Positions 13,795 to 41,861 of a stretch of DNA of 57,236 nt are shown here, piece by piece (within the stretch, counting starts at the first letter, position 1; each line of letters opens with the position of its first letter). The notes under the pieces were generated by a model that saw nothing but the letters and a program-made list of their open reading frames with translations, searched no databases and had not been told where the DNA came from. The stretch is taken from the NCBI GenBank assembly GCA_035533595.1, contig DATLTN010000057.1:1-57236 (forward strand). The letters run 5' to 3'. Made by a program: the position numbers and the translations under genes. This DNA comes from Acidimicrobiales bacterium (GTDB lineage: Bacteria; Actinomycetota; Acidimicrobiia; Acidimicrobiales; Bog-793).

Positions 13795-13888
13795 TTTGGA
13801 GCCGCTCCAGTGGCAGAAAGATGGAATTGACTTTCGCGGCCTTTGGAGCCGCTCCAGTGACAGAAAGATGGAACTGGCTTTCGCGGTC
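13795..13888. repeat. 47-bp tandem direct repeat (two copies)
   Basis: Units 13795-13841 and 13842-13888 match at 43 of 47 positions. Each begins TTTGGAGCCGCTCCAGTG, containing the near-palindrome GGAGC-C-GCTCC, then AGAAAGATGGAA. No gene uses it, and a shorter related TTTGGAACCGG motif lies just upstream. Its nature is unknown. Confidence 0.8.
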
Positions 13889-13901: not shown

Positions 13902-13938
13902 GAAGAAGGCGGAGGGGCTTCGTCCCTCCGCCTTCTTC
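13902..13938. terminator. Strong intergenic hairpin
   Basis: A perfect 15-bp stem (GAAGAAGGCGGAGGG 13902-13916 and CCCTCCGCCTTCTTC 13924-13938) with a 7-nt loop. There is no long T-tract. It separates the core block from the accessory block that follows. Confidence 0.65.
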
Positions 13939-14169
13939 ATTCGTCAGTTGAGGTTGCTAGCGCATCGCTTCGCGGATGTGATCGCGGAGTCCGTGCCGCG
14001 GCATCGCTCGCTGCAACTCAGTTCCGCGTTCGAAGCGGGTTCGTGGCGGTATTGGCCGCTCAGGCGCCATCGCGACGCGGCGGAGATCGATCGAGTGGAC
14101 CTCGCCCCCAGGCCGATGCTGCTTCGTGAGCTCGCGGGGCTTCGAAAGATGACGCATTGATGGTGCGGA
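13939..14169. other. Intergenic region without a supported gene
   Basis: About 230 bp with short frames on both strands but no recognisable domain, ribosome binding site or RNA gene. The plus-strand frame starting at 13894 begins by translating the hairpin and is rejected. The promoter of the following large gene should be here, but I see no clear boxes. Confidence 0.5.
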
Positions 14170-30340: not shown

Positions 30341-31023
30341 GAGCGGGCCACCCTCGCCTCCTCGTGCGCCTCGTGGAAGGCCTCGCCGACGCGCTCGCGG
30401 CTGAGGGCGTTCACCGCCAGGTGCAGGACGTCGCCCTCCTGGCCGACGAGTTCGCCGGCGCCGACGCGGGCGATGCCGGCGCGCGTCACGGCGACGACCT
30501 GCGCGCCCGTCTCGCCCTCGATCTGCTGGAGGCGCCGGCCGCACCAGGAGAAGGGGATGGCGCGCTCGATGAGCTGCACCTGCCCGGAGGGGTCGGTCCA
30601 CTCGGTGATCGTCTCGGTCGGGAAGAGGCGCCGCTGCACCTGCTCGATGGTCCAGGTCACGGTGGCGACGGTGGGGATGCCGAGACGCTGGTAGATCTCG
30701 GCGCGGCGGGGGTCGTAGATGCGGGCGACGACCGCGGGGATCTCGTAGGTCTCGCGCGCGATCCGGGCGCAGAGGATGTTCGAGTTGTCGCCGTTCGTCA
30801 CCGCCGCGAGCGCCCCCGCACGCTCGGCGCCGGCCTCGTCGAGGGTGTGACGGTCGAAGCCCATGCCGTGGATCGCGCGGCCCCCCCAGTCAGCGGGCAG
30901 CCGCCGGAAGGCGGGCTCGGACTTGTCGATGATCACCACGCTGTGCCCCGCTCGCACGAGCGCGATGCCGAGACTCGAGCCGACTCTTCCGCAGCCGACC
31001 ACGACGATGTGCACGGCATCCAT
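30337..31023 (-). CDS. TrkA-family potassium channel/transporter subunit (CeoB-like)
   Basis: This 228-residue RCK protein has VVVGCGRVGSSLG, Asp in VVIIDKSE and a C-terminal RCK_C domain. It differs from its partner in the nucleotide-site acid (Asp against Glu), as expected for a hetero-pair. ATG 31023 is preferred over the GTG 27 bp upstream because homology starts there. It is divergent from the APC permease, the same order as Rv2690c-ceoB-ceoC. Confidence 0.88.
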   Translation of the reverse strand: MDAVHIVVVGCGRVGSSLGIALVRAGHSVVIIDKSEPAFRRLPADWGGRAIHGMGFDRHTLDEAGAERAGALAAVTNGDNSNILCARIARETYEIPAVVARIYDPRRAEIYQRLGIPTVATVTWTIEQVQRRLFPTETITEWTDPSGQVQLIERAIPFSWCGRRLQQIEGETGAQVVAVTRAGIARVGAGELVGQEGDVLHLAVNALSRERVGEAFHEAHEEARVARS

Positions 31024-31117
31024 CGAACACGCCCATTCCGCCGCGCACAACTCATTCCGCCGGGCGGGGCGCCGGCGCCGGCTGACACGTCAGTTGGCAA
31101 TTGGGCAGACTACGGCG

Positions 31118-33469
31118 ATGTCCGAGCCATCGGTACCGCTCGGGCTCTCCGGCCCCCGACCGGCGCCGCCGCGCGTCGTCCTCCCCGAGCCGCTCGGCTA
31201 CCGTTGGAAGCGCCGCCTCCTCGGGCCGCCGCTCGTGACCGAGCGCCTCGCCGACGAGCGCCTCGCGAACCCCATCGCCCTCGGCGTGCTCGCCCCAGAC
31301 TGCATCTCCTCGACCGCCTACGGCTCGGAGGAGATCCTCACCGAGCTGATCCCGGCGGTCGGCGTCGCCGCCTTCAGCCTCCTCGTCCCGATCACCTTCG
31401 CGGTGATCGCGGTGCTGATCTTCATCACCCTCTCCTACCGAGAGGTCGTGATGGCCTACACCAAGGCGGGCGGCGCCTACGTCGTCGCGCGCGAGAACTT
31501 CGGGCCGCGCGTCGCCCAGGTGGCGGCGGTCGCGCTGATCATCGACTACGTCGTCACGGTCGCGGTGCAGATCTCGGCGGGGACCGACGCGGTGACCTCG
31601 GCCTTCCCGGCGCTCTCCCCCTACAACGTGGCGATCTGCCTCGGCGTGGTGGTGCTCATGTGTTACGGGAACCTTCGGGGGATCCGCGAGGCGGGGCGGA
31701 TGTTCGCCCTCCCCACCTATCTGTTCGTCACCGCCTGCGCGCTCGTGATCGTCTTCGGCATCGTCCGCAGCGCCCTCGGCGAGCTCCACCACCACAGCGT
31801 CCACATGGCCGGGGCCGTCCCCGCCGGCCATCCCGGGAGCGGCCTGCTCTACGGGGCGTCGTTGTTCATCATCCTCCGCTCGTTCGCGAACGGCGGCTCC
31901 TCGCTCACCGGCCTCGAAGCGATCTCCAACGGGGTCGCCACCTTCCGCCCCCCCGAGGGGCGCAACGCCCGGCGGGTGCTCGTCGTGATGTCGGTGACCC
32001 TCGGCTCGCTCGTCCTCGGCGTCTCGTTCCTTGCGACGGTGACCCACGCCGTCCCGTTCATGACCGGCAGCCCGACAGTCCTCTCCCAAGAGGCGCGCTA
32101 CGTCTTCGGCAGCGGGCTGTTCGCGAAGGTCGGCTACTACTTCGTGCAGGGGGCGACGATGCTCATCCTCTACACAGGCGGCAACACGAGCTTCAACGGC
32201 TTCCCCAACCTCGCGAGCTTCGTCGCCGAGGACGCCTTCCTCCCCCGTCAGCTGACGCGGCGCGGCCACCGCCTGGTCTTCTCGAACGGGATCCTCATCC
32301 TCGCGGCCCTCTCGGCGATCCTGCTCGTCATCACCCAGGCGCGGGTGAACTCTCTCGTCTCGGTGTATGCGATCGGCGTCTTCACCGGCTTCACGATGGC
32401 CGGGGCGGGCATGGTCCGCTACCACCTCGCGCACCGCCCGCCCGGTTGGCGGCACCGCCTCGTGGTCAACGGCTTCGCCTCGGGCCTCGCCTTCATCGTC
32501 GTGCTGATCCTCGCCGTCGCGAAGTTCACCGAGGGCGCCTGGGTCGTGGTCGTGCTCTTCCCGGTGCTCGTCGCGGTGCTGATCCGCATGCACCACGTCT
32601 ACGCCGAGGAGAAGGCGGAGCTGCAGGAGAACGTCACCCGCGCCGCCGAGGCGCCGATGCTCCGCCGCCACGTCATCTTCCTGTTCATCGGCGCCTTCGA
32701 CCTCGCTGCCGCGAGGGCCCTCCAGTACGGGAGGACCCTCGGTGCCGGCGAGCCGCGCGTCGTGCACTTCGTCCTCGACACCACCGCGGCGCGCGAGCTC
32801 GAGGTGCAGTGGTCGACGCTCGGCATCTCGCGCGTCCCGCTGGAGCTGATCGAGTGCCCCGACCGCCGCCTCGGGCGCGCCGCGATGGAGCTCGTCGCGG
32901 CCGCGGCGGCGGACGGCGAGACCGAGGTCACCGTGCTGCTGCCGCGGCGCGTGTCGGACGGCGTGCTCCGACGCTTCCTCCACGACCGCACCTCGGAGCG
33001 CATCGCCGCTCTCGTCGGCGAGATCCCGAACGCGGCGGCGACGATCGTCCCCTTCCTCCTCGGCCGCCGTCACCGCCTCCGCCCGGGGCGCGAGCGCGGC
33101 CCGTTCCTCGAGGAGGGCACCGCTCCTCTCGCCGCGCCGGAGGGTGGCGCCCTCCCGGCACCCGAGCCGAGCAGCGGCACGACGCCGATCGGGAGCCTCC
33201 GCTGGCGGGAGCGGGCGCGCGCCGGCGGGCGGGTGCACGCGGTGCGGGTGCAGCCGGGCTCGGGGCTCTCGAGCCTCGAGTGCGTCCTCGTCGACGCGAG
33301 CGGAGAGCTGCTCGTCGTGTTCCAGGGGCGCCGCTCCCTCCCCGGCATCGTCCCCGGCGCCCACCTCCTCGTCGAGGGGACCGTCGGCGAGCGCGGGGGG
33401 CGGGTGGCGATGCTCAACCCGAGCTATACGATCCTCGCGAGAGCCGTCGAGGAGCGGCCGCCGGGCTGA
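31118..33469 (+). CDS. APC-family permease with C-terminal OB-fold-like domain
   Basis: This 783-residue protein has 12 membrane segments of the APC amino-acid/potassium permease type (about 45-500: CISSTAYGSEEIL, YTKAGGAYVVARENFG). A cytoplasmic domain follows (about 505-660). A C-terminal segment of about 90 residues (688-783) has the pattern of an OB-fold: GGRVHAVRVQ, LECVLVDASGELLVVFQGRRSLPG, LLVEGTVGE, LNPSYTIL. In mycobacteria and streptomycetes an OB-fold gene is separate but near the TrkA pair, so this looks like a fusion. ATG 31118 begins the conserved part; the upstream frame is shadow. Confidence 0.87.
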   Translation: MSEPSVPLGLSGPRPAPPRVVLPEPLGYRWKRRLLGPPLVTERLADERLANPIALGVLAPDCISSTAYGSEEILTELIPAVGVAAFSLLVPITFAVIAVLIFITLSYREVVMAYTKAGGAYVVARENFGPRVAQVAAVALIIDYVVTVAVQISAGTDAVTSAFPALSPYNVAICLGVVVLMCYGNLRGIREAGRMFALPTYLFVTACALVIVFGIVRSALGELHHHSVHMAGAVPAGHPGSGLLYGASLFIILRSFANGGSSLTGLEAISNGVATFRPPEGRNARRVLVVMSVTLGSLVLGVSFLATVTHAVPFMTGSPTVLSQEARYVFGSGLFAKVGYYFVQGATMLILYTGGNTSFNGFPNLASFVAEDAFLPRQLTRRGHRLVFSNGILILAALSAILLVITQARVNSLVSVYAIGVFTGFTMAGAGMVRYHLAHRPPGWRHRLVVNGFASGLAFIVVLILAVAKFTEGAWVVVVLFPVLVAVLIRMHHVYAEEKAELQENVTRAAEAPMLRRHVIFLFIGAFDLAAARALQYGRTLGAGEPRVVHFVLDTTAARELEVQWSTLGISRVPLELIECPDRRLGRAAMELVAAAAADGETEVTVLLPRRVSDGVLRRFLHDRTSERIAALVGEIPNAAATIVPFLLGRRHRLRPGRERGPFLEEGTAPLAAPEGGALPAPEPSSGTTPIGSLRWRERARAGGRVHAVRVQPGSGLSSLECVLVDASGELLVVFQGRRSLPGIVPGAHLLVEGTVGERGGRVAMLNPSYTILARAVEERPPG

Positions 33470-33541
33470 CCGGCGAGGCGGTGGTCAGCGCCGCCCCACG
33501 CAGTCGTTATCCTTCGCCTCCGTCGCGATCCAGGTAGGAGC

Positions 33542-36381: not shown

Positions 36382-37005
36382 GTGGCGTCGCGCGGCAGGT
36401 TCATCGTCTTCGAAGGTGGTGAGGGGACGGGCAAGTCGACCCAGGCCGAACGCCTCGCCCGCCACCTCGGGGCGCTCCTCACCCGCGAGCCCGGGGGGAG
36501 CGCGCTCGGCGACGCCGTGCGCGCGCTGTTCCTCGGGGAGGCGGTCGGAGTGATCTCACCGCGCGCCGAGCTGCTGCTCGTGGCCGCGGCTCGCGCCCAG
36601 CACGTCGTCGAGCTGATCTCCCCGACGCTCCTCGCGGGGCGCGACGTGGTCTGCGACCGCTTCTCCGGCTCGACCCTCGCCTACCAGGGCCACGGGCGGG
36701 GCCTCCCCCTCGAGGACGTGCTGGTGGCGAGCGAGCTCGCGACCGCCGGCCTGCAGCCCGACCTCACCGTGCTGCTCGACCTCGACCCCGCGGTCGCGAA
36801 GGCGCGGCGCAAGAGCGAGGCCGACCGCATCGAAGCCGAGGGGGACGCCTTCCACGAGCGGGTCTTCGCCGGCTTCCGGGCGATCGCCGCCGCCGACCCC
36901 CGCGGCTGGGCGCTCCTCGACGCGAGCGGCAGCCCGGACGAGGTCGAGGGTCGCGTCCGGGAGGTCGTCACGGCGCGTCTCGGGCCACCGGCGGTGCCGG
37001 CGTGA
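36382..37005 (+). CDS. tmk: Thymidylate kinase
   Basis: This 207-residue enzyme phosphorylates dTMP to dTDP. It has P-loop FEGGEGTGKST, the REPGGS dTMP-site motif and the DRFSGSTLAYQG segment. The start is GTG 36382, and the gene overlaps holB by 4 bp. The tmk-holB pair is widespread in bacteria. Confidence 0.95.
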   Translation: MASRGRFIVFEGGEGTGKSTQAERLARHLGALLTREPGGSALGDAVRALFLGEAVGVISPRAELLLVAAARAQHVVELISPTLLAGRDVVCDRFSGSTLAYQGHGRGLPLEDVLVASELATAGLQPDLTVLLDLDPAVAKARRKSEADRIEAEGDAFHERVFAGFRAIAAADPRGWALLDASGSPDEVEGRVREVVTARLGPPAVPA

Positions 37006-38078
37006 CGGCCGGCGCGACGCCGGCCCCTCCGGTCTTCGGGCGGGTCATCGGCCAACCGCACGCCGTCGACCTGCTCGCCGCCTCGGCGGCGAGCCCGCTG
37101 CACGCCTACCTGTTCCTCGGCCCTCCCGGATCGGGCAAGCGCCGCGCCGCGACCGCCTTCGCGGCGGCGCTGCTGTGCCCCGAGGGTGGCTGCGGTGATT
37201 GCCCGTCGTGCCGCGACGTCCTCGCCGGCCGCCACCCCGACGTCACCTTCGTCGAGCGCCAGGGGGCCGCGATCAGCGTCGATCAGGCGCGCGAGGTGGC
37301 GAGGATCGCCCAGCGGGCACCTGCCGTCAGCCGGCTGCAGCTGGTCGTCCTCGTCGACTTCCACCTCGTCGAGGAGGCCGCTCCGGCGCTGTTGAAGACG
37401 ATCGAGGAGCCGCCCGCTTCCACGGTCTTCGTCGTCCTCGCCGATGCGCTCCCCCCTGAGCTGGTGACGATCGCGAGCCGCTGCGTGCCGGTGCACTTCG
37501 CGGCGCTCGACGAGGGCAGCATCGAGGCGCTGCTCCTCGAGGGCGGCGTCGAAGCGGGGGTCGCCACGGCCGCGGCCGCCGCCGCGCACGGTCGCTTCGA
37601 CCGGGCTTCGCTCATCGCCGCGGACCCGCAATTCGCGGCGCGCCAGGCGCGCTGGCGGGCGGTCCCCGAGGCGCTCGACGGCACCGGCGCGACCGTGGCG
37701 AGGACCGTCGCGGAGCTCCTCTCCGGTGCCGAGCAGCTGCTCGCCGTGGTGCGGGAGCGCCAGGAGGCCGAGCTCGCGGTGCTCGCCGAGGAGGCGACGC
37801 GCCGCGGCGACCGGACCATCGCCGGCCGCCAGCAGATCGAACAGCGCCACCGCCGTGAGCAACGCCGCCTGCGCACCGACGAGCTGCGCGCCGGCCTCGC
37901 GACCCTCGCCGCCGCCTACCGGGCGCGCCTCGACGCCCCGAACCTCCCGCCCAGGCGGGCAGCGGGACTGGTGCGCGCCTGTGAGCGCATCGACGAGGCG
38001 GCGAAGTGGGTCGAGCGGAACCCGAGCGAGCCGCTCCTCCTGCAGGCGCTGCTGCTCGATCTCGACAAGAGCGGCTGA
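37002..38078 (+). CDS. holB: DNA polymerase III subunit delta'
   Basis: This 358-residue clamp-loader subunit has the AAA+ core: GPPGSGKRRAA (Walker A without the usual Ser/Thr after Lys), a four-Cys zinc module (CPEGGCGDCPSCRD) and KTIEEPPASTVFVV. A second, helical collar region forms the C-terminal half. GTG 37002 overlaps the tmk stop. Confidence 0.93.
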   Translation: MTAGATPAPPVFGRVIGQPHAVDLLAASAASPLHAYLFLGPPGSGKRRAATAFAAALLCPEGGCGDCPSCRDVLAGRHPDVTFVERQGAAISVDQAREVARIAQRAPAVSRLQLVVLVDFHLVEEAAPALLKTIEEPPASTVFVVLADALPPELVTIASRCVPVHFAALDEGSIEALLLEGGVEAGVATAAAAAAHGRFDRASLIAADPQFAARQARWRAVPEALDGTGATVARTVAELLSGAEQLLAVVRERQEAELAVLAEEATRRGDRTIAGRQQIEQRHRREQRRLRTDELRAGLATLAAAYRARLDAPNLPPRRAAGLVRACERIDEAAKWVERNPSEPLLLQALLLDLDKSG

Positions 38079-38079
38079 C

Positions 38080-39201
38080 TCAGCCGGGCGCGGAGGGGAG
38101 CGGCGGCGCCTGCGCGCCGAGCGCCTTCATCTTCAGCTTGCCCGGGGGCTTCGGTGCCCGCGGCGCGCTCGGAAGCTTCGGCGCCGGCGCTCGTGGTGGC
38201 TGGCGGGGCGGGAGCTGGCCCCTCGACATCGCCTTCATCTTCAGCTTGCCGGGCGGCCGCGGCGGCCCTCCGGAGCCCGCATGTGGTGCCTTGGCCGCGC
38301 TGGGGAGCTTCGCGGCCGGCCCCCCCGCCGCAGCGCCCGCGCCCCCGGCGGCGGGGAGCTTCGGCGCGGCCTTGGTCGGCGGCGTCGCCTTGCCCTTGGC
38401 CATCGCCTTCATCTTCAGCTTGCCCGGGGGGCGCTTGCTCGCGAGCTTCGGCGCGGCGAGCTTCTTCGCGTCCTTCGCCCCGGGGAGCGCCTTGGCCGCT
38501 GGCAGCTTCTTGGCGGGCAGCTTCTTGGCGGCGATCTTCGGAGGCGCCACCTTCTTGCCGCCCGCCTTCGGGGGGGCGAGCTTCTTCGCCGGTGGCCGCT
38601 TCGGGAGCTTCTTCACCTTCGGGAGCTTCTTCGCCGCGGCCTTGGGGGCCTGCTGCTTCTTCGCCAGCTGCTCGGAGTGCTTGAGACGCGCCTTCTTCGC
38701 CCCGGTGAGCTTCTTTACCGAGAGCTTCTTCTGCGCCTTCAGCCGTCTCGCGGCGAGCTTCTGCTTCCCCATCTTCTTCTGCGCGGGGAGCTTCGGCCCC
38801 TTCAGCTTCTTCGCCGACTGCCGGCCGACCGGGACCTTCTTCCCCGCGGGGGCCTTCGGGAGGGCGAGCTTCTTGCCCCCGGGGACCTTCGGGGCGGCGA
38901 GCTTCTTCGCCCCCGGCGCCTTCGGAGGGGCGAGCTTCTTCACCCCGGGCAGCTTCGGGCCGGCGAACTTCTTCGCGCCGGGGGCCTTCGGGGGCGCGAT
39001 CTTCTTCCCCCCGGGGAGCTTCGGGCCGGCGAGCTTCTTCGCCGCGGGGAGCTTGGCCGCGGGGAGCTTCGCCCCCGCCGCCTTTGGGAGCGCGAGCTTC
39101 TTCGCCGTCGGCAGCTTCGGCCCCGCGGGCCGCTTCCCGCTCGGAAGCTTCGGGCCGGGGAACTTTCTCGCCGAGGGGAGCTTCGGGACGCGGGGCGGCA
39201 C
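38080..39201 (-). CDS. Lys/Pro/Ala-rich 11-residue repeat protein
   Basis: This 373-residue protein is almost entirely low complexity. From about residue 20 to 120 it repeats an 11-residue unit (PKLPGGKKIAP, PKAPGAKKFAG, PKLPGVKKLAP and variants). The middle is Lys/Ala-rich, and the last 120 residues contain three copies of PPGKLKMKA. It should be strongly basic and unfolded, like histone H1-type or lysine-tailed nucleoid proteins; a nucleoid or RNA-binding role is inference. The opposite strand is also open, encoding Phe/Gly/Ser-rich repeats, but that product is less plausible. Convergent with holB, it ends 2 bp from it. Confidence 0.65.
   Translation of the reverse strand: MPPRVPKLPSARKFPGPKLPSGKRPAGPKLPTAKKLALPKAAGAKLPAAKLPAAKKLAGPKLPGGKKIAPPKAPGAKKFAGPKLPGVKKLAPPKAPGAKKLAAPKVPGGKKLALPKAPAGKKVPVGRQSAKKLKGPKLPAQKKMGKQKLAARRLKAQKKLSVKKLTGAKKARLKHSEQLAKKQQAPKAAAKKLPKVKKLPKRPPAKKLAPPKAGGKKVAPPKIAAKKLPAKKLPAAKALPGAKDAKKLAAPKLASKRPPGKLKMKAMAKGKATPPTKAAPKLPAAGGAGAAAGGPAAKLPSAAKAPHAGSGGPPRPPGKLKMKAMSRGQLPPRQPPRAPAPKLPSAPRAPKPPGKLKMKALGAQAPPLPSAPG
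38150..39150. repeat. 33-bp-period coding repeat array
   Basis: Tandem units of about 33 bp (GGGGAGCTTCGGGCCGGCGA-type on the plus strand) encode the 11-residue repeats of the minus-strand gene. Units are degenerate toward the 3' side of the gene. Copy number may vary between strains. Confidence 0.65.
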
Positions 39202-39261
39202 GCGCCCGACGCTACTTTCGCCCCGCCCCCGGCGGGGGGTGCCGGCCCGGGAGCGCCGGTG

Positions 39262-41244
<1,983 letters not shown>

Positions 41245-41342
41245 CTCCCCTCCTTGTCCAGCGCCAATCTAAACGCCGCCCCGGCGCGGACCGCCCACCC
41301 GCTCCCGGCCCTCTGGCACGATGGGCCCCCGAGGGAGGTCCG

Positions 41343-41861
41343 ATGCGCGAGCGCGCCGCAGCCGAGGAGACGAGGAGCGCGCGCGACGGCGCGCCGGTCG
41401 CCCTCGGACCGCTGCGCGACGACGAGCACGCGGCGCTGTTCTCCCTCTTCGCCGACGTCGTCACGGCAGGCGAGGGCTACCCGCACGCCCCGCCGCTCAC
41501 CCGCCAGGTCTTCGAGGAGACCTGGGTGCGGCCGGTGACGACGGTGATCGCGGCCCGCCTCGGGGGCGAGCTGGCGGGCGCCTACTACCTGAAGCCCAAC
41601 TCGCCCGGGCGCGCCGCGCACATCGCCAACGCCGGCTACCTCGTCGCCGCGCCTGAGCGCCGGCGGGGCATCGGGCGCCTGCTCTGCGAGGACTCGATCT
41701 GGCGGGCGCCGCTGCTCGGCTTCGACGCCGTGCAGTTCAACCTCGTCTTCGTCGACAACCCGGCGCGGGCGCTCTACGAGGAGCTCGGCTGGGCCGAGAT
41801 CGGGCGCGTCCCGCGCGCCGTCGAGGGCCGGGACGCGATCATCTACTGGCGAGCGGTGTAG
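41343..41861 (+). CDS. GNAT-family N-acetyltransferase
   Basis: This 172-residue protein has the acetyl-CoA loop in APERRRGIGRLLCEDSI and the closing VDNPARALYEELGWAEIGRVP strand. GGGAGG lies 5 nt before ATG 41343. Substrate unknown. It is divergent from acs and 22 bp ahead of the next gene. Confidence 0.87.
   Translation: MRERAAAEETRSARDGAPVALGPLRDDEHAALFSLFADVVTAGEGYPHAPPLTRQVFEETWVRPVTTVIAARLGGELAGAYYLKPNSPGRAAHIANAGYLVAAPERRRGIGRLLCEDSIWRAPLLGFDAVQFNLVFVDNPARALYEELGWAEIGRVPRAVEGRDAIIYWRAV

Follow-up and report, generated by a model that had tools for sequence, protein, structure and literature searches.

We identified an orphan gene in the 57,236-nucleotide contig analysed here (the window), and we consider it most likely, with a probability of roughly 0.55, that this is a real, lineage-restricted gene whose product, by analogy with other bacterial polycations, would be a mostly disordered Lys-rich chain binding DNA non-specifically, like H1-like tails. 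In the list of open reading frames the gene encodes 373 amino acids, beginning at a GTG and ending at a TGA. The protein carries 88 Lys and 14 Arg against only two acidic residues (one Asp and one Glu), which gives a computed net charge of about +100, a pI of 12.0 and a mass of 37.7 kDa, and five residues dominate its composition (K 23.6%, A 20.6%, P 19.0%, L 10.5%, G 9.7%). Acidic residues are nearly missing outside the 11-residue repeat array as well, and no signal-peptide-like or membrane-like hydrophobic stretch was found in the protein, the maximum 15-residue Kyte-Doolittle mean being 0.75. The product is therefore Lys-rich, acid-poor, of low complexity and mostly without a predicted fold, the traits from which our working analogy to a bacterial H1-like polycation is drawn. 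The coordinates of all features are given in Table 1.

Table 1 Features of the orphan locus and HU genes of the source genome (residue numbers refer to the orphan protein)
Feature	Coordinates	Strand	Evidence
Orphan Lys-rich protein gene	38080..39201	-	ORF; codon-position GC, codon usage, frame plot
acsA, acetate-CoA ligase, upstream neighbour, same strand and reading frame	39262..41244	-	Profile matches, frame plot
holB, DNA polymerase III delta prime, convergent neighbour	37002..38078	+	Profile matches
TAGCGT hexamer 7 nt before GTG, speculative -10 element (leaderless transcript)	39209..39214	-	Inspection
11-residue (33-bp) array, residues 6-125	38827..39186	-	Autocorrelation, unit listing, DNA repeats
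Lys/Gln-rich basic segment, residues 139-191, two modelled helices	38629..38787	-	AlphaFold2 single-sequence model, block pLDDT up to 83
PPGKLKMKA copy 1, residues 258-266	38404..38430	-	Motif search
PPGKLKMKA copy 2, residues 316-324	38230..38256	-	Motif search
PPGKLKMKA copy 3, residues 352-360	38122..38148	-	Motif search
HU gene of source genome (L106)	G000:C6:82215-82481		
HU gene of source genome (L092)	G000:C28:6572-6841		

Open frames are abundant in high-GC DNA. In the orphan ORF, GC at the three codon positions (0.69/0.57/0.95) follows the same pattern as in topA, tmk, holB and acsA, Lys is encoded by AAG in 88 of 88 cases with codon choice matching the neighbours, and in the frame plot the minus-strand phase of acsA runs on from 39.9 kb to about 38.1 kb. 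When a synonymous codon score was trained on five neighbour genes, the orphan frame came out at the top of six (0.142), with its antisense mirror at 0.075 and the true frame of holB at 0.159, the contrast between frames being moderate. Codon-position GC, frame plot and codon score, together with the fit of the ORF between acsA and holB, favour the minus strand, and they provide strong evidence, short of proof, that the orphan ORF is probably a protein-coding gene on this strand. The plus strand is also open here in two long frames (38006-39691 and 37726-41538), either of which might be the real gene with the orphan ORF as its shadow, and the second-best codon score does belong to the mirror frame. 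However, both plus-strand frames extend deep into the neighbours (antisense to acsA, and into holB) without any Pfam match, their products would have an implausible composition (A/F/G or L/R), and the interval keeps the minus-strand codon phase of acsA, which makes such a shadow very improbable. Expression of the opposite strand, named in the initial annotation as grounds against the gene, is thus disfavoured by the codon evidence.

The orphan gene starts 60 bp beyond the end of acsA on the same strand and is convergent with holB, the two stops lying 1 bp apart. It had been described as lying next to replication genes; tmk and holB are nearby, but both are convergent on the other strand, and the upstream neighbour on the same strand is acsA. 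At the holB loci of 29 relatives, neither acsA nor a Lys-rich ORF was found within 1.5 kb or less downstream. Given this and the convergence with holB, proximity is not evidence for a replication role: the replication-gene neighbourhood looks incidental, and the suggested link is unsupported. On inspection, no Shine-Dalgarno or other ribosome-binding sequence was evident before the GTG, and a consensus scan returned no promoter; inspection of this one site did reveal a TAGCGT hexamer that could, speculatively, serve a leaderless transcript as its -10 box.

Between acsA and the orphan gene, the frame is interrupted by no stop other than the TGA of acsA itself, which 20 sense codons follow. This and the shared reading frame, together with the missing Shine-Dalgarno sequence, would suit a stop-codon readthrough product, that is, an acetate-CoA ligase with a cationic tail of which the orphan ORF forms the C-terminal part. 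We regard this as extremely unlikely, because two genes share a frame by chance one time in three, alignments with AcsA relatives reach the same C-terminus and no Lys-rich ORF flanks acsA at their loci, and the fold of the junction is no better than that of shuffles (z +1.7).

Elsewhere in the window, a 1057-aa open frame without a Pfam match lies just upstream of topA (30364-33537, plus strand), and long frames on both strands overlap it. At 13795-13886, a 47-bp unit is present in two tandem copies (93% matches), each with a short palindrome-like TTTGGAGCCGCTCCA, and a strong GC-rich inverted repeat (GAAGAAGGCGGAGGG...CCCTCCGCCTTCTTC) follows at about 13904-13940.

The initial annotation presented the product as a highly basic protein built of 11-residue repeats. 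The ORF, the basicity and the period are all borne out, but the array is confined to residues 6-125 and does not span the whole protein. It comprises nine 11-residue units of the form PK-x-PG-x-KK-L-A-x and one irregular 21-residue unit, and PK-x-PG-x-KK is fitted exactly by five of the nine. The 11-residue period is far above chance: identity at lag 11 is 0.307 for the whole protein versus 0.156 +/- 0.018 in 2000 shuffles (maximum 0.224), and reaches 0.529 for residues 1-130 versus 0.159 +/- 0.032 in shuffles. No clear 11-residue period was found in residues 131-373 (0.203 versus 0.154 +/- 0.023). At the DNA level, the array consists of 33-bp repeats whose copies are 60-82% alike to the reference stretch. 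Substitutions between units are spread over the codon positions as 107/111/106, and with no excess at third positions the array gives no evidence of purifying selection on its exact residues. The scarcity of acidic residues would agree with selection on overall charge.

The AlphaFold2 single-sequence model has a mean pLDDT of 53.9 and a pTM of 0.20, and its only helical region is the basic segment at residues 139-191; elsewhere pLDDT is near 50, which in a low-confidence model of this kind is weak evidence for disorder only. The C-terminal tail is rich in Pro, Ala and Lys and does contain the three PPGKLKMKA motifs reported before, beginning at residues 258, 316 and 352. Their DNA is nearly identical, and they are scattered over an otherwise diverged tail; the repeats may be putative short binding motifs.

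When we searched 59 further genomes from the family and order for relatives of the protein, three weak matches were obtained (E 8e-5 to 5e-4), all of them K/A low-complexity proteins or tails. None of the other genomes searched, 34 in the family and 396 in the order, contained the PGKLKMKA DNA pattern. Across 84,980 species genomes it occurred at 12 places, once each and never in a Lys-rich repeat ORF, which we take as matches only by chance, and viral contigs gave at most single chance matches, none in a Lys-rich repeat ORF. The 11-mer pattern, which matches the orphan gene five times, gave a single isolated match when 118 further genomes of the class were scanned. No match to the orphan protein came from plasmids, viral contigs or PHROGs, or from the sequences and folds of the PDB. 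Homologues carrying PPGKLKMKA, for which the initial annotation had proposed a search, were thus found neither in the family nor in the order nor among the species genomes. Absence of the frame from relatives, which it had counted against the gene, was indeed seen; but the source genome is the only one of its genus among the genomes searched, so the absence points to a lineage-restricted orphan rather than to a false ORF. From these searches, the gene is apparently restricted to its species or genus, and it may be genus-wide.

The gene might also be young and lineage-specific, having grown through tandem duplication of a 33-bp unit that codes for Lys and Pro, and its product might be translated yet serve no specific function. 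This reading would agree with the lack of a homologue at motif, protein or locus level and with the equal divergence of the repeat units at the three codon positions. We consider this improbable, given 373 stop-free codons with neighbour-like usage, the scarcity of acidic residues beyond the array, and three nearly identical PPGKLKMKA motifs in a tail that has otherwise diverged.

A long, flexible and acid-poor chain with regularly spaced Lys would bind polyanions by charge, and the analogy with Hc2 and with the tails of AlgP and TopA makes DNA the most likely target. In the DNA-binding polycation that we favour, a flexible Pro/Gly backbone would present regularly spaced Lys and KK doublets that neutralise phosphate charge, the Lys-rich chain could bridge or compact DNA as bacterial H1-like tails do, and the basic helical segment and the three PPGKLKMKA motifs might act as extra contact points. 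Here we infer polyanion binding from charge, and likewise DNA as the main target, compaction and a role of PPGKLKMKA. Against the favoured reading we count the lack of homologues whose conservation could point to a function, the HC2 and H1-like matches below cut-off, the missing third-position excess among the repeat units, and the Lys/Ala-tailed HU and Lys-tailed TopA already encoded in the source genome.

Charge alone cannot choose DNA over RNA or polyphosphate, and the orphan protein might serve as a polycation for another polyanion. This could be RNA or ribosomes, or else polyphosphate or storage granules that would be attached to the nucleoid in the way suggested for AlgP and PhaF. The Lys/Pro/Ala-repeat protein AlgP is found at polyphosphate granules and has repeat peptides that bind DNA (PMC9239181). 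We nevertheless think another polyanion rather unlikely as the target, as the orphan protein has neither KPAA repeats nor any other Pfam domain; the tethering of PHA granules in particular was rejected, because no match to PHA synthase (PF07167) was found in the 96%-complete source genome. We also propose, only tentatively, that the orphan protein might compact DNA or another polyanion, be specific to its lineage and represent a sequence type undescribed before, in which a Pro/Gly-broken cationic array of 11-residue units is combined with a basic helical segment and with a PPGKLKMKA motif that is present three times and would recruit a partner.

If confirmed, the orphan protein would be one more bacterial H1-like cationic protein that seems to have originated independently, here in a lineage already equipped with Lys-tailed forms of HU and TopA. 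It would then suggest that short repeats expand into H1-like proteins that have no ancestor in common. The present support reaches as far as a well-supported orphan gene, and the importance is modest.

Among known systems, the orphan protein resembles chlamydial Hc2, which PF07382 groups with relatives from Bordetella and Burkholderia, in being Lys-rich and repeat-built and in giving a weak, order-dependent profile match. It matched Pfam HC2 (PF07382) with 27.6 bits (E 3.7e-6), below the curated cut-off of 40, and NCBIfam hist_H1_lk_Burk (NF038053) with 25.7 bits, below the equivalog cut-off of 80. That the HC2 match reflects pure composition was rejected, as four same-composition shuffles scored nothing; residue order must matter, probably through the KK doublets. 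The Lys tail of TopA also matches HC2 (23.4 bits), and the match is hence no proof of homology. In Hc2, Lys-rich pentamers and hexamers make up elements of 36 residues, and the protein varies by repeat number (PMC2848022). This build is not seen in the orphan protein, whose clear period is 11 residues and in which AAKK occurs only three times; it differs from Hc2 in its Pro/Gly/Leu-containing units and in its PPGKLKMKA motifs. On profile comparison, it is a member of no named family tested. A basic and possibly DNA-binding protein, as the initial annotation implied, fits the composition and the lack of a confident fold and of homologues. Its statement that the protein resembles no known nucleoid protein agrees with the lack of any homologue or family assignment, but is too strong in view of the order-dependent H1-like matches, albeit below cut-off.

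AlgP and PhaF of Pseudomonas carry KPAA repeats, and the repeat region of AlgP, a protein with a net charge of +55, is predicted to be disordered (PMC9239181). The orphan protein shares a Lys/Pro/Ala-rich repeat region with predicted disorder. It differs in having no KPAA at all, in an N-terminus formed by the 11-mer array rather than by a helical domain, and in Lys-rich sequence that spans the whole protein.

No HU domain (PF00216) was found in the orphan protein. Two HU genes are present in the source genome, both located elsewhere than the orphan locus; the product of one bears a long tail rich in Lys and Ala, and that of the other is tailless. Of the family relatives examined, most have a single HU, which carries such a tail. 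In one relative, the HU (L088, G014:C48:881-1150) bears a long regular tail of VAKAAVKKAPVAKK-like units, a similar repeat expansion on a folded protein, while an unrelated-looking protein of another (L005, G045:C1:820045-820509) ends in a long TAKKTAAKKTTAKK tail; such tails recur on different proteins within the order. The lysine repeats of Streptomyces TopA make the complex of the enzyme with DNA more stable (PMC7398561). The Lys/Ala tail noted earlier on TopA of the same window is present, but it is typical of actinobacterial TopA and is no evidence about the orphan protein. The HU and TopA tails, taken with the GC content, suggest an actinobacterial source genome. Both tails resemble the orphan protein in being cationic and of low complexity, whereas they are nearly pure K/A and attached to folded DNA-binding proteins, and the orphan protein stands alone, with 19% Pro, 10% Leu and 10% Gly.
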